Shown in pieces: positions 11,528 to 16,317 of a stretch of 21,920 nt of DNA (position 1 is the first letter of the stretch; each line of letters opens with the position of its first letter). A model generated the notes under the pieces. The model had not been told where the DNA came from, did not search any database, and saw only the letters and a program-made list of their open reading frames with translations. The DNA lies in IMG/VR virus record IMGVR_UViG_3300031772_009615, positions 1 through 21,920 of that record, one strand, 5' to 3'. Both the position numbers and the translations under genes were made by a program. This DNA comes from a virus.

Positions 11528-11897
11528 TCATGGATTTTCTCAGGTCCGTTATTGAGAGGGCGACTTTGAGTTCGCCGCTATGGGCGAGTTCCTGCCGATC
11601 GCGCCAAAGGTCGGGGCGCCGGTTCTTCAGCCAAAAGATCATGGCGGTTGTATCACCGCCCTTGGCCTTCTCATAAAGGCTCTTCGTTATCTGAAAGTCG
11701 GCCTTCAGCTTTCCCCTTTTTAGGGACTGCAAAAACACTGGTGTTTTTTTCCAGTAATTCAGGGTCCGGGGGCTGATCCCCAGGATGACGGCGATCTCCT
11801 CATCTGTCATTCCAAGGCTGGCGATGATCTCGACCTGCTCAAGATTGATATCTTCCAGCCTCACGCGCTGATTGAGCTTTACCACTTTGACTTTCAT
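11502..11897 (-). CDS. terS: Terminase small subunit (putative)
   Basis: This 131-residue protein carries an N-terminal helix-turn-helix (MTDEEIAVILGISPRTLNYW, about residues 30-49) and a helical middle (DFQITKSLYEKAKGGDTTAM) followed by FWLKNRRPDLWRDR, a pattern very common in phage small terminases. It would recognise the packaging site and hand DNA to the large subunit. It starts at ATG 11897, sharing four bases (ATGA) with the methyltransferase gene, and overlaps the large terminase gene. Confidence 0.82.
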   Translation of the reverse strand: MKVKVVKLNQRVRLEDINLEQVEIIASLGMTDEEIAVILGISPRTLNYWKKTPVFLQSLKRGKLKADFQITKSLYEKAKGGDTTAMIFWLKNRRPDLWRDRQELAHSGELKVALSITDLRKSMSEYKKNGS

Positions 11898-12883
11898 CTT
11901 GCTTCGAGCACCGTTGTCCTAATGTGAGACGCGATGGCCTCCATAAAGCGGGGCATCACAGCGTTGCCGATCCGCGCCCACTGCTCCCGGAAGTTGCCGG
12001 TGATTTTGAATTCATCCGGGAAACTCGAAAAGCGCTTGATTTCAGAAATGTTCAAGCACCGTGGATGTTCCCAGTGGAAGACCCCTCCGCCTCCGCTCGG
12101 GATGACGGTTTTCTGGATAGTCGGGCAGGGACGGTTAGGGTTCAACTTGGACCCATTGAACCAGTAACCTTTGGGATGGTACTTGTCGAAGCTCTCCCCG
12201 TTCCTGCACTTCTTCCAGATCTCAAATCCCAGTTCACCCAGGGTCCTGGAGGCGTCATCGGGGAGCCCCTGGACCGCCTCCCGGGATGGAATGACCTTCC
12301 GCTGAGGCTCGGGGAAAGAGGGCTCTTTTCTCAAGTCATTCCTGACTCCGATCCAGATCAGCCGCTGGCGCGACTGGGGGACTCCGTAATATTTCGTGTT
12401 CATGAGTTTGCACTTCGTCCGGTAGGGAATGCCCTTGAGGGTCTTCATGATCTCGATGAATCGGCCTTTCATCGTCCCTTTTACCAGTCCCGACACGTTT
12501 TCCATGACATAGATCTTGGGTTGGAGCTCGTCGATCAGCCGCGCGAACTCTAGGAAAAGGTCGTTCCTGGGGTCGTTGACGTCTCTCCGGCCGGCCGTCG
12601 AGAAGCCCTGGCAGGGCGGCGAGCCGTCCAGGAGGTCAAGCGTGCCGCGCTTCAGCCGGCAGAACTCGAGGATCTCTTTGCTGGAAACAGTCTTGATGTC
12701 TTTCTTCCAAACAGGGACCCTGGGGAAATTCAGCTTGAAGGTCTCGACCGCGTTGGTGTCGGAGTCGATGGCCAGGAGCTCCCGGAAGCCGGCCCACTTG
12801 TAGCCGAGCGAGCTGCCGCCGCATCCGGCGAAGGTCGAAACAAGCGTCGGTTTTCTCACCATTTGTACCCGCATTTCGGACAT
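11894..12883 (-). CDS. C5-cytosine DNA methyltransferase
   Basis: The ordered motifs of m5C methyltransferases are all present in 329 residues: motif I TFAGCGGSSLG (17-27, SAM binding), motif IV DGSPPCQGFS (86-95, catalytic Cys91), motif VI ENV (128-130), motif VIII QSRQRL (170-175), a target-recognition region with RPCPTIQKT (251-259) and motif X RIGNAVMP (304-311). It transfers a methyl group from SAM to cytosine in a DNA target that cannot be told from this sequence. No restriction enzyme gene is adjacent, so self-protection of phage DNA against host restriction is the likely use. Starts at 12883, 12874 or 12862 are all possible and none has a clear ribosome site; the longest overlaps the ParB-like gene by 28 bases. 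Confidence 0.93.
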   Translation of the reverse strand: MSEMRVQMVRKPTLVSTFAGCGGSSLGYKWAGFRELLAIDSDTNAVETFKLNFPRVPVWKKDIKTVSSKEILEFCRLKRGTLDLLDGSPPCQGFSTAGRRDVNDPRNDLFLEFARLIDELQPKIYVMENVSGLVKGTMKGRFIEIMKTLKGIPYRTKCKLMNTKYYGVPQSRQRLIWIGVRNDLRKEPSFPEPQRKVIPSREAVQGLPDDASRTLGELGFEIWKKCRNGESFDKYHPKGYWFNGSKLNPNRPCPTIQKTVIPSGGGGVFHWEHPRCLNISEIKRFSSFPDEFKITGNFREQWARIGNAVMPRFMEAIASHIRTTVLEAR

Positions 12884-13350
12884 TCGTTCTGGGTCAGGAG
12901 CGACTCATCGAAGTCCTGCTCCTTTGGATCAATGTCGGGCCCGAACCGCTCCATGATCTGCTTGAGGTCGGCTGTATTCCCGAGGTCGACCTTGTAATCA
13001 TTGAGATTAAGCTTTGCCAGGTAGGGCTGGACGAGCTCGGCCAGCTGTTGCTCTTCGTAGAATCCGGCGCGGTCGTTATCGGAGAGAGCAAACTCGATCT
13101 TCTCGGCTTCGATCTTGGGCTGGACAATGGAGACTTCAACCTTTCGCACGCCGAGCTCCTTCAGGGCCCGGATCCGCATATTCCCGCCGAGGGTGATGTA
13201 CTTTCCCTTTTCCTCAAAGACGATCAGAGGCTTATAGACTCCGAGCTTGAGGATCTGGCGTTTGAGGCGCTCGAAGTCGTCCTGCCGGATCCCGCGGGGG
13301 TTCTTCTCCCAGGGAAGCACCTGATCGATGGGAACCTTGACGATTTTCAT
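12856..13350 (-). CDS. ParB-like nuclease-domain protein
   Basis: This 164-residue protein has the ParB/Srx N-terminal fold: IDQVLPWEKNPR (8-19), a repeated helix (FERLKRQILKLGVYKPLIVF) and the signature KYITLGGNMRIRALKELGV (49-67), where GGNMR replaces the more usual GEHR box. The C-terminal end has one CPKC pair (CPKCGYKW), enough for half a zinc site. In phages these proteins are often encoded next to DNA methyltransferases and terminases, as here. Current knowledge places this fold among CTP-binding switches and nucleases, but its phage role is not settled. It overlaps the upstream membrane protein by four bases (ATGA). Confidence 0.82.
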   Translation of the reverse strand: MKIVKVPIDQVLPWEKNPRGIRQDDFERLKRQILKLGVYKPLIVFEEKGKYITLGGNMRIRALKELGVRKVEVSIVQPKIEAEKIEFALSDNDRAGFYEEQQLAELVQPYLAKLNLNDYKVDLGNTADLKQIMERFGPDIDPKEQDFDESLLTQNECPKCGYKW

Positions 13351-14120: not shown

Positions 14121-14462
14121 TCAAATTTCGAAGTGGTAGATGTCGTTCAGACTCTTCCATCGCCCGCCCCACACGCCGCCCATACTCTCCCAGATCTGCC
14201 CGAGCAGCTCATACTCGGGTATCCGGTCCCAGACCGGCCGGCCGTCCTTGATAATGACAAGGTCCATCGCCTGCCAGAACTGATGTTTGGCTTTCTTGAC
14301 GTAGCCGTCGACCTGGCTCTTGCCCTCGAGGAAGTACTTGTGGACCTCCTCGGCAGACAAGAAAAAGTTGAAAGGCATGATCTGAATGTTATTGACCCGA
14401 GCCTCGATCACGAGCTTCGAGATCAGGTAGATGAAGTTCAGGCGCGCGGCGGTTCCGTTCAC
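14121..14462 (-). CDS. Endolysin, M15-type zinc peptidase
   Basis: This 113-residue protein matches small phage L-alanyl-D-glutamate / D-Ala-D-Ala peptidases of the M15 group. The first zinc-ligand motif is seen as KAKHQFWQAMDLVI (His and Asp eight apart, H-x6-D; the usual Gly is Trp), and the second as GGVWGGRWKSLNDIYHFE, with the catalytic acidic residue and the last His ligand. It would cut the peptide part of peptidoglycan during lysis. There is no signal peptide, so it needs a holin for access. The only start in reach is GTG 14462 with a poor ribosome site; an in-frame stop lies 27 bases upstream. A strong hairpin sits about 40 bases upstream. Confidence 0.85.
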   Translation of the reverse strand: MNGTAARLNFIYLISKLVIEARVNNIQIMPFNFFLSAEEVHKYFLEGKSQVDGYVKKAKHQFWQAMDLVIIKDGRPVWDRIPEYELLGQIWESMGGVWGGRWKSLNDIYHFEI

Positions 14463-14502
14463 GCCTTGATTGTAAGGGGGTGGTTTTTAGCGATTTCGGT
14501 CA

Positions 14503-14525
14503 GGTGGCCACAAGCTGTGACCACC
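14503..14525 (-). other. Strong hairpin upstream of the endolysin gene
   Basis: GGTGGTCACA and TGTGGCCACC on the minus strand form a 10-bp stem with one G-U pair and a GCT loop. It is in the 85-base gap between the nuclease-paralogue gene and the GTG start of the endolysin. No U-run follows, so a standard intrinsic terminator is unlikely. It could be an operator, a processing site or a brake on endolysin translation. Confidence 0.55.
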
Positions 14526-14547
14526 TTCTACCCGAGAGGGGGGACGC

Positions 14548-14853
14548 TTAAATGGCCAAAGATTTCCTCTTGACGCCAGTTGAAAAGTCCGCTATTTCAA
14601 ATGTCGATATATTCGGCTTCTTGATCCAAATCTCTTTTCGGCAGGATGCCGGAAGTTCTATCTGGCCAACGGCTTCCCGGTCCGCTTTTGTTGCCGCGTC
14701 AAGACAAATTTTGATTTTGCGAAGTTCATATTGGCGTACGGCTTCGAGGTCAAACGGACCGTCAGAAAGAAAACTCACGCGATATCCGCAAGCCATGAGG
14801 ATTTCCCGGGCGCGTCGGCGCGCTTTGTAAAACCTATTCTGTGTCGCTGCCAT
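14548..14853 (-). CDS. Small paralogue of the upstream nuclease's N-terminal domain
   Basis: This 101-residue protein is read from ATG 14853, which has AAGGA six bases upstream, and overlaps the preceding gene by 20 bases. Residues about 14-75 align with residues 12-90 of the protein encoded just upstream: GYRVSFLSDGPFDLEAVRQYELRKI against GYYIENINGPSFDIIAAREREWRLI, and both reach KEIW(I/L)(K/R)K. The pattern G-P-x-FD-(I/L)-x-A-(V/A)-R recalls the Asp strand of PD-(D/E)XK resolvases and nucleases, but the E-x-K half is not preserved. It may be a DNA-binding or inactive nuclease-like partner. Function unknown; the homology to the neighbour is visible by eye. Confidence 0.65.
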   Translation of the reverse strand: MAATQNRFYKARRRAREILMACGYRVSFLSDGPFDLEAVRQYELRKIKICLDAATKADREAVGQIELPASCRKEIWIKKPNISTFEIADFSTGVKRKSLAI

Positions 14854-15529
14854 CTTGTTCCTTCTTTGCCAGTTCAATGAAGCGAAGAATCTCCTCGCAA
14901 TGTTTAAACCATTCTCCTCGAATTCTGAATTGAGCAAAATGTTCATGAAGTTTTTTTTCGCTTTCAAAGACGTTATCCGTTTTTATTGAATGAAGCATTT
15001 CAAGGTCGTCGAGGTTATTAGCTTTAAGTTCATAGCATCGTCTTTGGATATCTTTGGTATGGCCGATTTTTATAAGATTCCGTTCTTTGTTGAGGATGAA
15101 ATAAACGTGGCCGGAAAGATCATTTTGCTGCTTCCGGATTATTTGTTTTCGGGATCTAAAAACATTAAGAAGCTGCCCGTTTTGTGTTATCCATTGTCCA
15201 TTTTCCAAGCTGTAAGTTATCCAATGCCGGGAAGTGGCGGAAGAATTTTTCCCGGCACCCTTCCTCAACCAGATTTCCTTGCTGATAAGTTTGATACCAT
15301 GTCTATCAATAAGCACCGGAATTTGTTCCAAACGTCTTACCTTTTCTACTTTTGCGGAAAGTTGATCGGGTTCAACGAAAATGATTAATCGCCATTCTCT
15401 TTCCCTGGCGGCGATAATATCAAAAGATGGGCCGTTTATGTTTTCGATATAATAGCCGATCTGGGACAGGCTATCAATTGCCTTGGCTTTCGCTCTGGCC
15501 ATCCGTTTCTTGATCGCTTCGTCTGCCAT
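14834..15529 (-). CDS. Fusion of nuclease-like domain and T5orf172/MUG113-type GIY-YIG domain
   Basis: This 231-residue protein has an N-terminal domain (about 12-90) shared with the next gene and a C-terminal GIY-YIG domain of the T5orf172/MUG113 type (138-220). The latter shows HVYFILN (GIY equivalent, 141-147), LIKIGHT (YIG equivalent, 152-158), R163-R164, LHEHF (194-198) and the metal-binding Glu206 in RGEWF. Residues 91-137 are a linker of unknown role with an aromatic WITYSLENGQW stretch. GIY-YIG domains cut DNA and are common in mobile nucleases. The ribosome site is weak and the DNA is visibly AT-richer than the flanks, which suggests later acquisition. It sits between the candidate holin and the endolysin. 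Confidence 0.75.
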   Translation of the reverse strand: MADEAIKKRMARAKAKAIDSLSQIGYYIENINGPSFDIIAAREREWRLIIFVEPDQLSAKVEKVRRLEQIPVLIDRHGIKLISKEIWLRKGAGKNSSATSRHWITYSLENGQWITQNGQLLNVFRSRKQIIRKQQNDLSGHVYFILNKERNLIKIGHTKDIQRRCYELKANNLDDLEMLHSIKTDNVFESEKKLHEHFAQFRIRGEWFKHCEEILRFIELAKKEQDGSDTE

Positions 15530-15593: not shown

Positions 15594-15860
15594 TCAGGCC
15601 CCCGGCCCGGCCGGTCTTGCCACCTTGATGAGCGAATATCCGGCGTTCGCCCCGATGGCCACCTGGATCACGTCGATGACGATCTGCGCCGTGATCGGCC
15701 TCCCTGTCGAGACGTAGAAGTAGAGAACCACTCCCACGCTGACGACGACGGACAGAATGACCGCCATCGTCTTCTCGACGACCACGTTGACCTTGGCCAG
15801 TGCATTCTTGAGGAACTGCGTCACGGCCAAGGTTGTCGCGATCATGGTTGTGATATTCAT
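15594..15860 (-). CDS. Two-span membrane protein, candidate holin
   Basis: This 88-residue protein starts at ATG 15860 behind an excellent AAGGAGG. Two hydrophobic segments are seen: residues about 31-50 (MAVILSVVVSVGVVLYFYV) and 58-80 (AQIVIDVIQVAIGANAGYSL), joined by a short turn with GRP. The N-terminus is amphipathic and may form a third weak span. Size and layout fit class II phage holins, which make the membrane hole that releases the endolysin. The endolysin gene follows, but two nuclease-like genes lie between. Other small membrane roles cannot be excluded. Confidence 0.55.
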   Translation of the reverse strand: MNITTMIATTLAVTQFLKNALAKVNVVVEKTMAVILSVVVSVGVVLYFYVSTGRPITAQIVIDVIQVAIGANAGYSLIKVARPAGPGA

Positions 15861-15888: not shown

Positions 15889-16317
15889 TCACAAAGCCCC
15901 CAGCTGAATTTTTACATGGGGCGTTCGAGAGTAGAACTTCTGCGCGGTGACCTTTACGATTTGCGCGTCGTCCCTGTAGGCAAAGCCGTTCATGGCATCT
16001 GCGGCGGACTTGATGAGATTATCCACATCGGGCCGTTTCGCCGGCCGAATCAGCCCGTCCGCCATCGCCTGCTGTCGCCTCATGCTCTCGGATTTCGGAA
16101 TGCCGCAGTAGATGTAAAGCATCATCCATACCGGACCCGTAAACGGCTCGAAGCCGGGATATTTGACAGCGAAGAGTTCCCGGATCAGGGTTTCATAGTT
16201 GACGGTTTTCTGCGGGGTCACACCCCGACGGATGAACCCTCCGGATTTTGTCTTGACCGGGAATACCTTCGGCCGCTGCTTGCCTACTCCTTCGCCTGGA
16301 ATCGTGAGCTCGATCAT
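15889..16317 (-). CDS. rusA: RusA-family Holliday junction resolvase
   Basis: This 142-residue protein shows the RusA family core: an N-terminal strand (MIELTIPGEGVGKQRPKVF), the catalytic motif RPDVDNLIK (95-103, with two Asp and a Lys in the RusA D-x-D-x3-K pattern) and DAMNGFAYRDDAQI (107-120), giving the third Asp. RusA dimers cut four-way junctions, which resolves replication and recombination intermediates before packaging. Length is close to usual. It starts at ATG 16317 with a four-base overlap with the upstream gene, at the end of the replication module. Confidence 0.9.
   Translation of the reverse strand: MIELTIPGEGVGKQRPKVFPVKTKSGGFIRRGVTPQKTVNYETLIRELFAVKYPGFEPFTGPVWMMLYIYCGIPKSESMRRQQAMADGLIRPAKRPDVDNLIKSAADAMNGFAYRDDAQIVKVTAQKFYSRTPHVKIQLGAL

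Follow-up and report, generated by a model that had tools for sequence, protein, structure and literature searches.

What are two neighbouring genes with a common domain, one of them fused to a GIY-YIG nuclease domain, doing beside the endolysin gene of a phage? The genes lie in a 21,920-base IMG/VR stretch (the window, meaning the whole stretch of DNA analysed), whose recognisable genes lie on the minus strand, and the features of the locus are as follows.

14121..14462, minus strand: M15_4 endolysin (Pfam match at 4.7e-8), downstream neighbour of the pair
14463..14547, minus strand: untranslated gap before the endolysin, holding a hairpin (14502-14526) and a box (14469-14490)
14469-14490, minus strand: box CTAAAAACCACCCCCTTACAAT / CTAAAAA..CTTACAAT, directly before the endolysin start and recurring in the gap of several relatives
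14548..14853, minus strand: small gene (101 aa), a stand-alone dead Hjc-like protein of type A
14834..14853, minus strand: overlap of 20 nt between the fusion stop and the small-gene start
14834-15529, minus strand: fusion gene, an ORF of 231 aa
14834..15154, minus strand: fusion residues 126-231, T5orf172/MUG113 GIY-YIG domain (Pfam match at residues 140-213)
15155..15529, minus strand: fusion residues 1-125, dead Hjc-like domain (PD-(D/E)XK fold) of type B
15594..15860, minus strand: candidate holin, upstream neighbour, a small hydrophobic ORF named by position, without a confident family match
15889..16317, minus strand: RusA-type Holliday junction resolvase (family match), the probable active resolvase of the window phage

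The gene pair and its surroundings

That the two neighbouring genes share a domain, as the original prediction had it, was borne out by BLASTP (28% identity over 86 aa, E 2e-5) and by an independent relative, L046/L060, which matches both, with 57% identity to the small protein and E 9.7e-6 in its record for the fusion N-terminus. The position between candidate holin and endolysin also holds, and the pair is indeed AT-richer than its surroundings, with a GC content of 38.3% in the GIY-YIG part, 43.5% in the fusion N part and 48.7% in the small gene against 56.4% in the window. Hardly any DNA in the window is as AT-rich as the GIY-YIG part: only 0.5% of 321-nt segments equal it, and all of these fall inside the fusion/small gene pair. 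The small gene likely starts at the ATG at 14853, with AAGAAGGAA directly upstream as a good ribosome-binding sequence, and this start was preferred to the TTG at 14967; the resulting 20-nt overlap makes co-expression of the two genes probable. Between the lysis cassette and the terminase lie a C5 cytosine methylase gene and a ParB_N-domain gene (window 11894-12883 and 12856-13350), and in L060 the ParB part is fused to a further methyltransferase-like part, as judged by eye.

Relatives of the two genes

Single-protein scans of viral contigs gave no close relatives of the small protein, the fusion N part or the GIY-YIG part. When phage records were searched by tblastn, the GIY-YIG half alone produced matches, among the best 20 of 43 matching records listed; the fusion N part matched nothing in these records even at E 10, the small protein gave three chance-like matches only (E 1 to 6), and the type A alignment detected no relative in bacterial genomes. 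We scanned viral contigs with the pattern FD...KE[IV]W, which gave 34 stretches, and reading these in frame yielded L046, a close relative of the small protein, together with nine rows in which Q/S/A-x-K is intact. More lysis regions were gathered with the neighbouring lipoprotein, the small protein and the fusion N-terminus as anchors. Terminase relatives that were 71-74% identical were present at three loci of bacterial genomes (L080, L081, L082), all from Candidatus Aminicenantes, which indicates this group as the host. A profile search of the Aminicenantes host class matched 7 of 142 genomes at E<=0.001, the genome matches from this search including intact or chance rows (L087 and L089 are intact, and L090 was rejected).

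Altogether we collected 18 dead Hjc-like copies, so called from the active-site comparison below, in 17 distinct loci of phages and prophages tied to Candidatus Aminicenantes. These are the window with two copies, eight viral contigs (L058, L060, L061, L066, L067, L068, L070, and L073) and eight genome loci (L080, L081, L082, and L094-L098, of which L080 and L081 are in one genome). L046 and L060, L066 and L074, and L067 and L072 are the same contigs, the identical dead genes of L068/L069 and of L070/L071 were each counted once, and ORF calls in the relatives are mechanical. The window is the only one of the 17 loci with two dead copies; the dead genes do not form a constant pair, each of the 16 other loci having a single copy, and at one of these no lysis gene is visible.

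Fold of the shared domain

The AF2 model of the small protein (pLDDT 88) has the order helix-strand-strand-strand-helix-strand-strand, and its best PDB match is Hjc 1gef (Z 11.4, rmsd 2.7, 95 aligned). Hjc structures headed its PDB list in both programs, closely followed by SPARDA subunits and the homing endonuclease 2ost (Hjc superfamily). The model of the fusion N-terminus has the same topology and the same top PDB matches (Hjc 1gef, Z 10.4, rmsd 2.7, 96 aligned, residues 6-118), the agreement of the two models not being independent, since both were built from one set of 21 rows, intact rows included. The alpha-beta-beta-beta-alpha-beta core of Hjc is present in the models of both window copies, and the GIY-YIG half of the fusion was modelled at low confidence (block means 43-70).

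Profile comparison of dead with intact rows by hhalign gave a probability of 97.9 (E 4.7e-13). Since part of the intact rows came from the scan with FD...KE[IV]W, a pattern that predetermines these residues, the comparison was redone without the KEIW block, and the probability was then 94.3, while 30 column shuffles never exceeded 0.4. Pfam Hjc was hit by intact rows (3 of all 21 rows of alignment A6, best 2.4e-9), as were PDB Hjc chains (best 8e-4); a PDB sequence search with the two-sequence alignment returned chance matches only, and the small protein had no match in Pfam, PHROGs or NCBIfam. The common domain is almost certainly an archaeal-Hjc-type PD-(D/E)XK Holliday-junction-resolvase fold that is catalytically dead. 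A degenerate PD-(D/E)XK resolvase-like fold without E-x-K had been proposed from the sequence, and the models, giving Hjc for both domains, agree with it; unrelated folds, named beforehand as the outcome that would count against it, were not found.

Loss of the active site and selection

We take the catalytic residues of Hjc and PD-(D/E)XK enzymes to be a Glu in helix 1, an Asp, and E/Q-x-K. Of the 17 dead rows with data, none has the helix Glu or the Lys of the catalytic site, and 5, both window copies included, have the Asp; among intact rows the Glu is found in 12 of 12 and the Lys and the Asp each in 13 of 13. In most sister dead rows C, H, Q, N, or S takes the place of the Asp. On alignment to the intact rows neither window copy has the full Hjc catalytic set (Glu and Lys are missing and Asp is retained), and both are predicted to be dead.

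With the catalytic columns removed, the dead rows form one side of a branch in both trees (99/94 with 18 rows, 100/99 with 28 rows). L061, L044, and L082 were left out of the trees as cut or masked, the dead genes of L061 and L082 being cut at the contig end, and the intact row of L073 was left out of the 18-row tree as a long branch. The small gene falls in a group with L060 and L068, and the fusion N part in one with the stand-alone proteins of L067 and L070 (92/92, 18-row tree), a grouping into types A and B that is weaker in the 28-row tree (81/22). From these separate groupings the small gene and the fusion N part look like different old lineages, and a recent tandem duplication was rejected because the two fall in different tree groups.

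Between the window and L060, pS was 0.92 (saturated) and pN 0.26, and between L061 and L066 dN/dS was 0.21 over 54 codons. The strength of this constraint rules out a decayed pseudogene, and the codon comparisons strongly support the view that the dead Hjc-like lineage is under purifying selection. All 10 dead rows in A6 are basic, with net charges between +4 and +11.

The slot before the endolysin

In 13 of the 17 loci (the window, L058, L060, L061, L066, L067, L068, L073, L080, L081, L082, L096, and L097) the dead gene is followed immediately by an ORF for a peptidoglycan hydrolase, and in three (L070, L095, and L098) such an ORF stands one or two places further along; the remaining locus, L094, has the dead gene and no visible hydrolase or lysis gene. 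The hydrolases belong to four Pfam families (M15_4, NlpC/P60, Amidase_2, and M15_3), and others were recognised by their own profiles. Among 11 lipoprotein-anchored loci, chosen without regard to the dead gene, five carry it, three (two of them near-identical) carry another family, and three show no endolysin. All three terminase-anchored genome loci have the dead-Hjc gene before the endolysin, and none of 20 terminase-related viral contigs, most of them fragments, carries it. Very probably this is a slot-resident lineage of dead Hjc-like proteins beside the endolysin gene.

L064 and L067 share 94.9% identity up to the slot and 89% from the start codon of the endolysin onward, with no similarity between, the difference consisting of the slot gene and its leader. 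As these near-identical loci carry unrelated genes there, the slot is exchangeable, and no GIY-YIG gene was involved in the exchange. The mobility that had been suggested for the pair stands for the slot and not for the pair as such, as the relatives are not invariant pairs and the foreign part is most likely the GIY-YIG domain. The original prediction is therefore supported in part, and a mobile nuclease or an anti-competitor system may still describe the fusion.

Several further observations concern these lysis regions. A family with the motif SLYVWGE (about 80 aa, paired cysteines), whose common part has no Pfam or PHROG match, fills the slot before the endolysin in L005 (5674-5952), L017 (7833-8219), L063 (2710-2946), and L064/L065 (L064 1013-1246), and L018 has an NlpC endolysin with neither this family nor the dead-Hjc family before it. 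In four related phages (L073 4221-4796, L066 3098-3901, L067 3450-3887, and L064 535-1005) the gene immediately upstream of the slot gene encodes an HTH protein whose C-terminal part is conserved. A short ORF before the M15 endolysin of L066 (4308-4388, MGDVLKFAYLRIKAVEY...) corresponds to the beginning of the NlpC/P60 endolysin of L058 and is probably the scar of an endolysin replacement; in L060, L061, L063, and L068 the endolysin is preceded by short leaders of another kind (VNRSP.., VNGTL..). Another degenerate PD-(D/E)XK-like phage protein, with VQSCG replacing Q-x-K, is encoded at 4888-5352 of L017, a terminase relative.

Candidate cis elements in the gap

The box at 14469-14490 looks like a leaderless -10 promoter and is a candidate promoter or operator. 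A box model built from seven loci had its top match inside the gap in three of seven held-out dead loci (L081, L082, and L096) and missed L067, L080, L095, and L097, the scan leaving out L070, L094, and L098. Of 16 dead loci (L098 left out of the count), 9 have TGTCAA close to the stop codon, the window not being among them, and none of 4 SLYVWGE loci has it. We treat the box and TGTCAA as clues to cis elements in the gap region that are not universal, and as leads only. The hairpin was rejected as a general feature, its fold z-score being below -2 in 3 of 9 dead loci (the window, L061, and L073) and in 1 of 4 SLYVWGE loci.

The GIY-YIG domain and the fusion

The T5orf172/MUG113-type GIY-YIG domain noted on the larger gene passes the Pfam cut-offs of PF10544 (42.5 bits, cut-off 20) and PF13455 (46.6 bits, cut-off 22.3), and PF01541 GIY-YIG scores 20.2, just below its cut-off of 22.6. 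The fusion retains Y, K-x-G, R, E, and GEW, and ten columns are invariant in 6 of 6 T5orf172 sequences; we presume catalytic roles for the conserved Tyr, Arg, Glu, and GEW. In the fusion and in all five aligned relatives a Lys occupies what we take to be the second GIY-YIG tyrosine position, where Tyr presumably has a role. A Pfam scan of the fusion (CapR profile not included) gave no second Pfam domain, no Zn finger and no RepA_N.

No second fusion of dead Hjc and GIY-YIG was present among the lysis loci gathered. The 142 genomes of the Aminicenantes host class gave no GIY-YIG match at E<=0.01, all four fusion matches falling within residues 1-92, and neither these genomes nor the loci held an allele pair with and without the fusion. 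Because single dead copies are resident elsewhere and the fusion was seen nowhere else, the GIY-YIG domain, not the pair, is most likely foreign. Among the papers listed by searches of open-licence PMC literature, none described a dead-Hjc/GIY-YIG pair in a lysis slot.

Comparison with known systems

Hjc resolvases (PF01870; PDB 1gef, 1hh1, 1ob8, 2wcw) have the fold and the helix/strand order in common with the window domains; in contrast to them, the dead lineage has lost the active-site Glu and Lys, is located in a phage lysis cassette and in one copy is joined to GIY-YIG. The archaeal regulators PRK04140 (NF003162) are weakly matched by the fusion N-terminus at model residues 199-277 (E 0.002), at 15.5 to 17.2 bits (whole fusion 15.5), far below the cut-off of 263; unlike in PRK04140, there is no HTH in the window proteins, and the small gene gives no match.

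According to the available part of a survey of phage T5orf172 nucleases, these lie near genetic-exchange boundaries and swap their DNA-binding domains, which are mostly Zn fingers, 200 of 229 carrying Zn-finger domains (CapR, DUF723, DUF4397) and 29 of 229 not (PMC10448857). The fusion resembles the nucleases and putative homing endonucleases described in that part of the survey in its domain, invariant residues, N-terminal extra domain and phage location, and differs from the Zn-finger members in that a dead Hjc fold takes the place of a Zn finger, of which Pfam detects none (PMC10448857). Odn (ICP1 gp88), as the available portion of its report presents it, is an origin-directed chimeric nuclease of RepA_N and T5orf172 that cuts satellite origins (PMC8263062). 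The fusion is like Odn, by analogy, in joining T5orf172 to a binding domain borrowed from a non-nuclease protein, and unlike what is described there in that RepA_N and satellite origins are replaced by an Hjc-like domain paralogous to the adjoining gene (PMC8263062).

Proposed function and alternatives

The explanation that we prefer, held as a whole with no more than even confidence, is that a resident dead-resolvase DNA-binding protein, a possible regulator of the lysis region, had one of its copies made into a chimeric T5orf172 nuclease. That Hjc-fold proteins lost the PD-(D/E)XK site and were nevertheless retained under purifying selection beside the endolysin gene in Aminicenantes phages and prophages is strongly supported. 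Their basic charge and Holliday-junction-resolvase fold suggest that they probably still bind DNA. More tentatively, they may serve the lysis region as small regulators or architectural proteins, acting probably at sites in the pre-endolysin gap, a role that we regard as conceivable rather than likely. In the window phage a second dead copy would have been joined to a T5orf172 GIY-YIG nuclease, with the dead domain giving targeting and the GIY-YIG domain cleavage, and we lean slightly towards the fusion being an active targeted nuclease. Acting as a homing-type enzyme, the chimera might cut related phages at the lysis slot and so favour exchange of the slot, a suggestion that we put forward with reserve, and the small gene would retain the resident role. 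Several observations speak against this explanation: the Asp is kept in both window copies, the GIY-YIG domain has Lys at the second tyrosine position, the L064/L067 exchange involved no GIY-YIG gene, the candidate cis elements are not universal, the dead gene is missing from the 20 terminase-related viral contigs (mostly fragments), L094 shows no lysis gene, and the model of the GIY-YIG half is of low confidence.

Among the alternatives, an anti-competitor or anti-satellite weapon, in which the fusion cuts rival DNA bearing the site of the dead domain and the small paralogue shields the phage's own site, appears unlikely. The dead copies are basic, the 20-nt overlap makes co-expression of fusion and small gene probable, and the layout parallels that of Odn, in which, in the portion of the report available, a non-nuclease binding domain and T5orf172 cut satellite origins (PMC8263062); but no target was seen, no satellite is known for phages of the window type, and two dead domains that are about 28% identical do not require a common site.

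Slightly less credible is a role as accessory subunit, in which the dead proteins would assist or modulate, without catalysis of their own, the active resolvase whose gene lies just before that of the holin (RusA in the window, Hjc-type elsewhere). A resolvase gene does stand upstream of the candidate holin in several loci: RusA in the window, L080, and L081 (and in L058 just below the Pfam cut-off), an intact Hjc-type in L070 and L073, and a weak Hjc match in L095 (19.4 bits, cut-off 21.1). This switching of the active resolvase between families speaks against one conserved interface, and the dead gene follows the position of the endolysin, not one resolvase family.

We doubt even more that the genes are passive cargo of a moron-like hotspot between holin and endolysin that gathers unrelated small genes without a lysis role. 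Such a hotspot would fit the unrelated SLYVWGE gene filling the slot in L005, L017, L063, and L064/L065 and the swap of the whole slot between L064 and L067; against it, a single dead family turns up in 16 further loci, in most of them right before the endolysin although the endolysins come from four unrelated families, the dead genes are under strong constraint, and candidate cis elements are kept in many loci. It is quite improbable that the two genes form a cut-and-protect system, in which a dead Hjc-fold lysis-region regulator would be re-armed by an unrelated nuclease, the fusion cutting rivals at the lysis slot and its dead neighbour shielding the phage's own genome. That the dead proteins are still active PD-(D/E)XK nucleases with a displaced active site, as the FD aspartate kept in both window copies might suggest, is very improbable, since the helix E and the lysine are missing from all dead rows with data and the D is also gone from most sister rows (C, H, Q, N, S).

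In wider terms, the locus shows a pseudo-resolvase lineage kept under selection at a fixed place of the lysis cassette in phages of an uncultured bacterial group, together with one case of such a dead fold joined to an unrelated nuclease domain. Should the dead proteins prove to bind DNA close to the endolysin gene, they would add a new kind of lysis regulator, and the fusion would provide a new targeting domain for T5orf172 nucleases.
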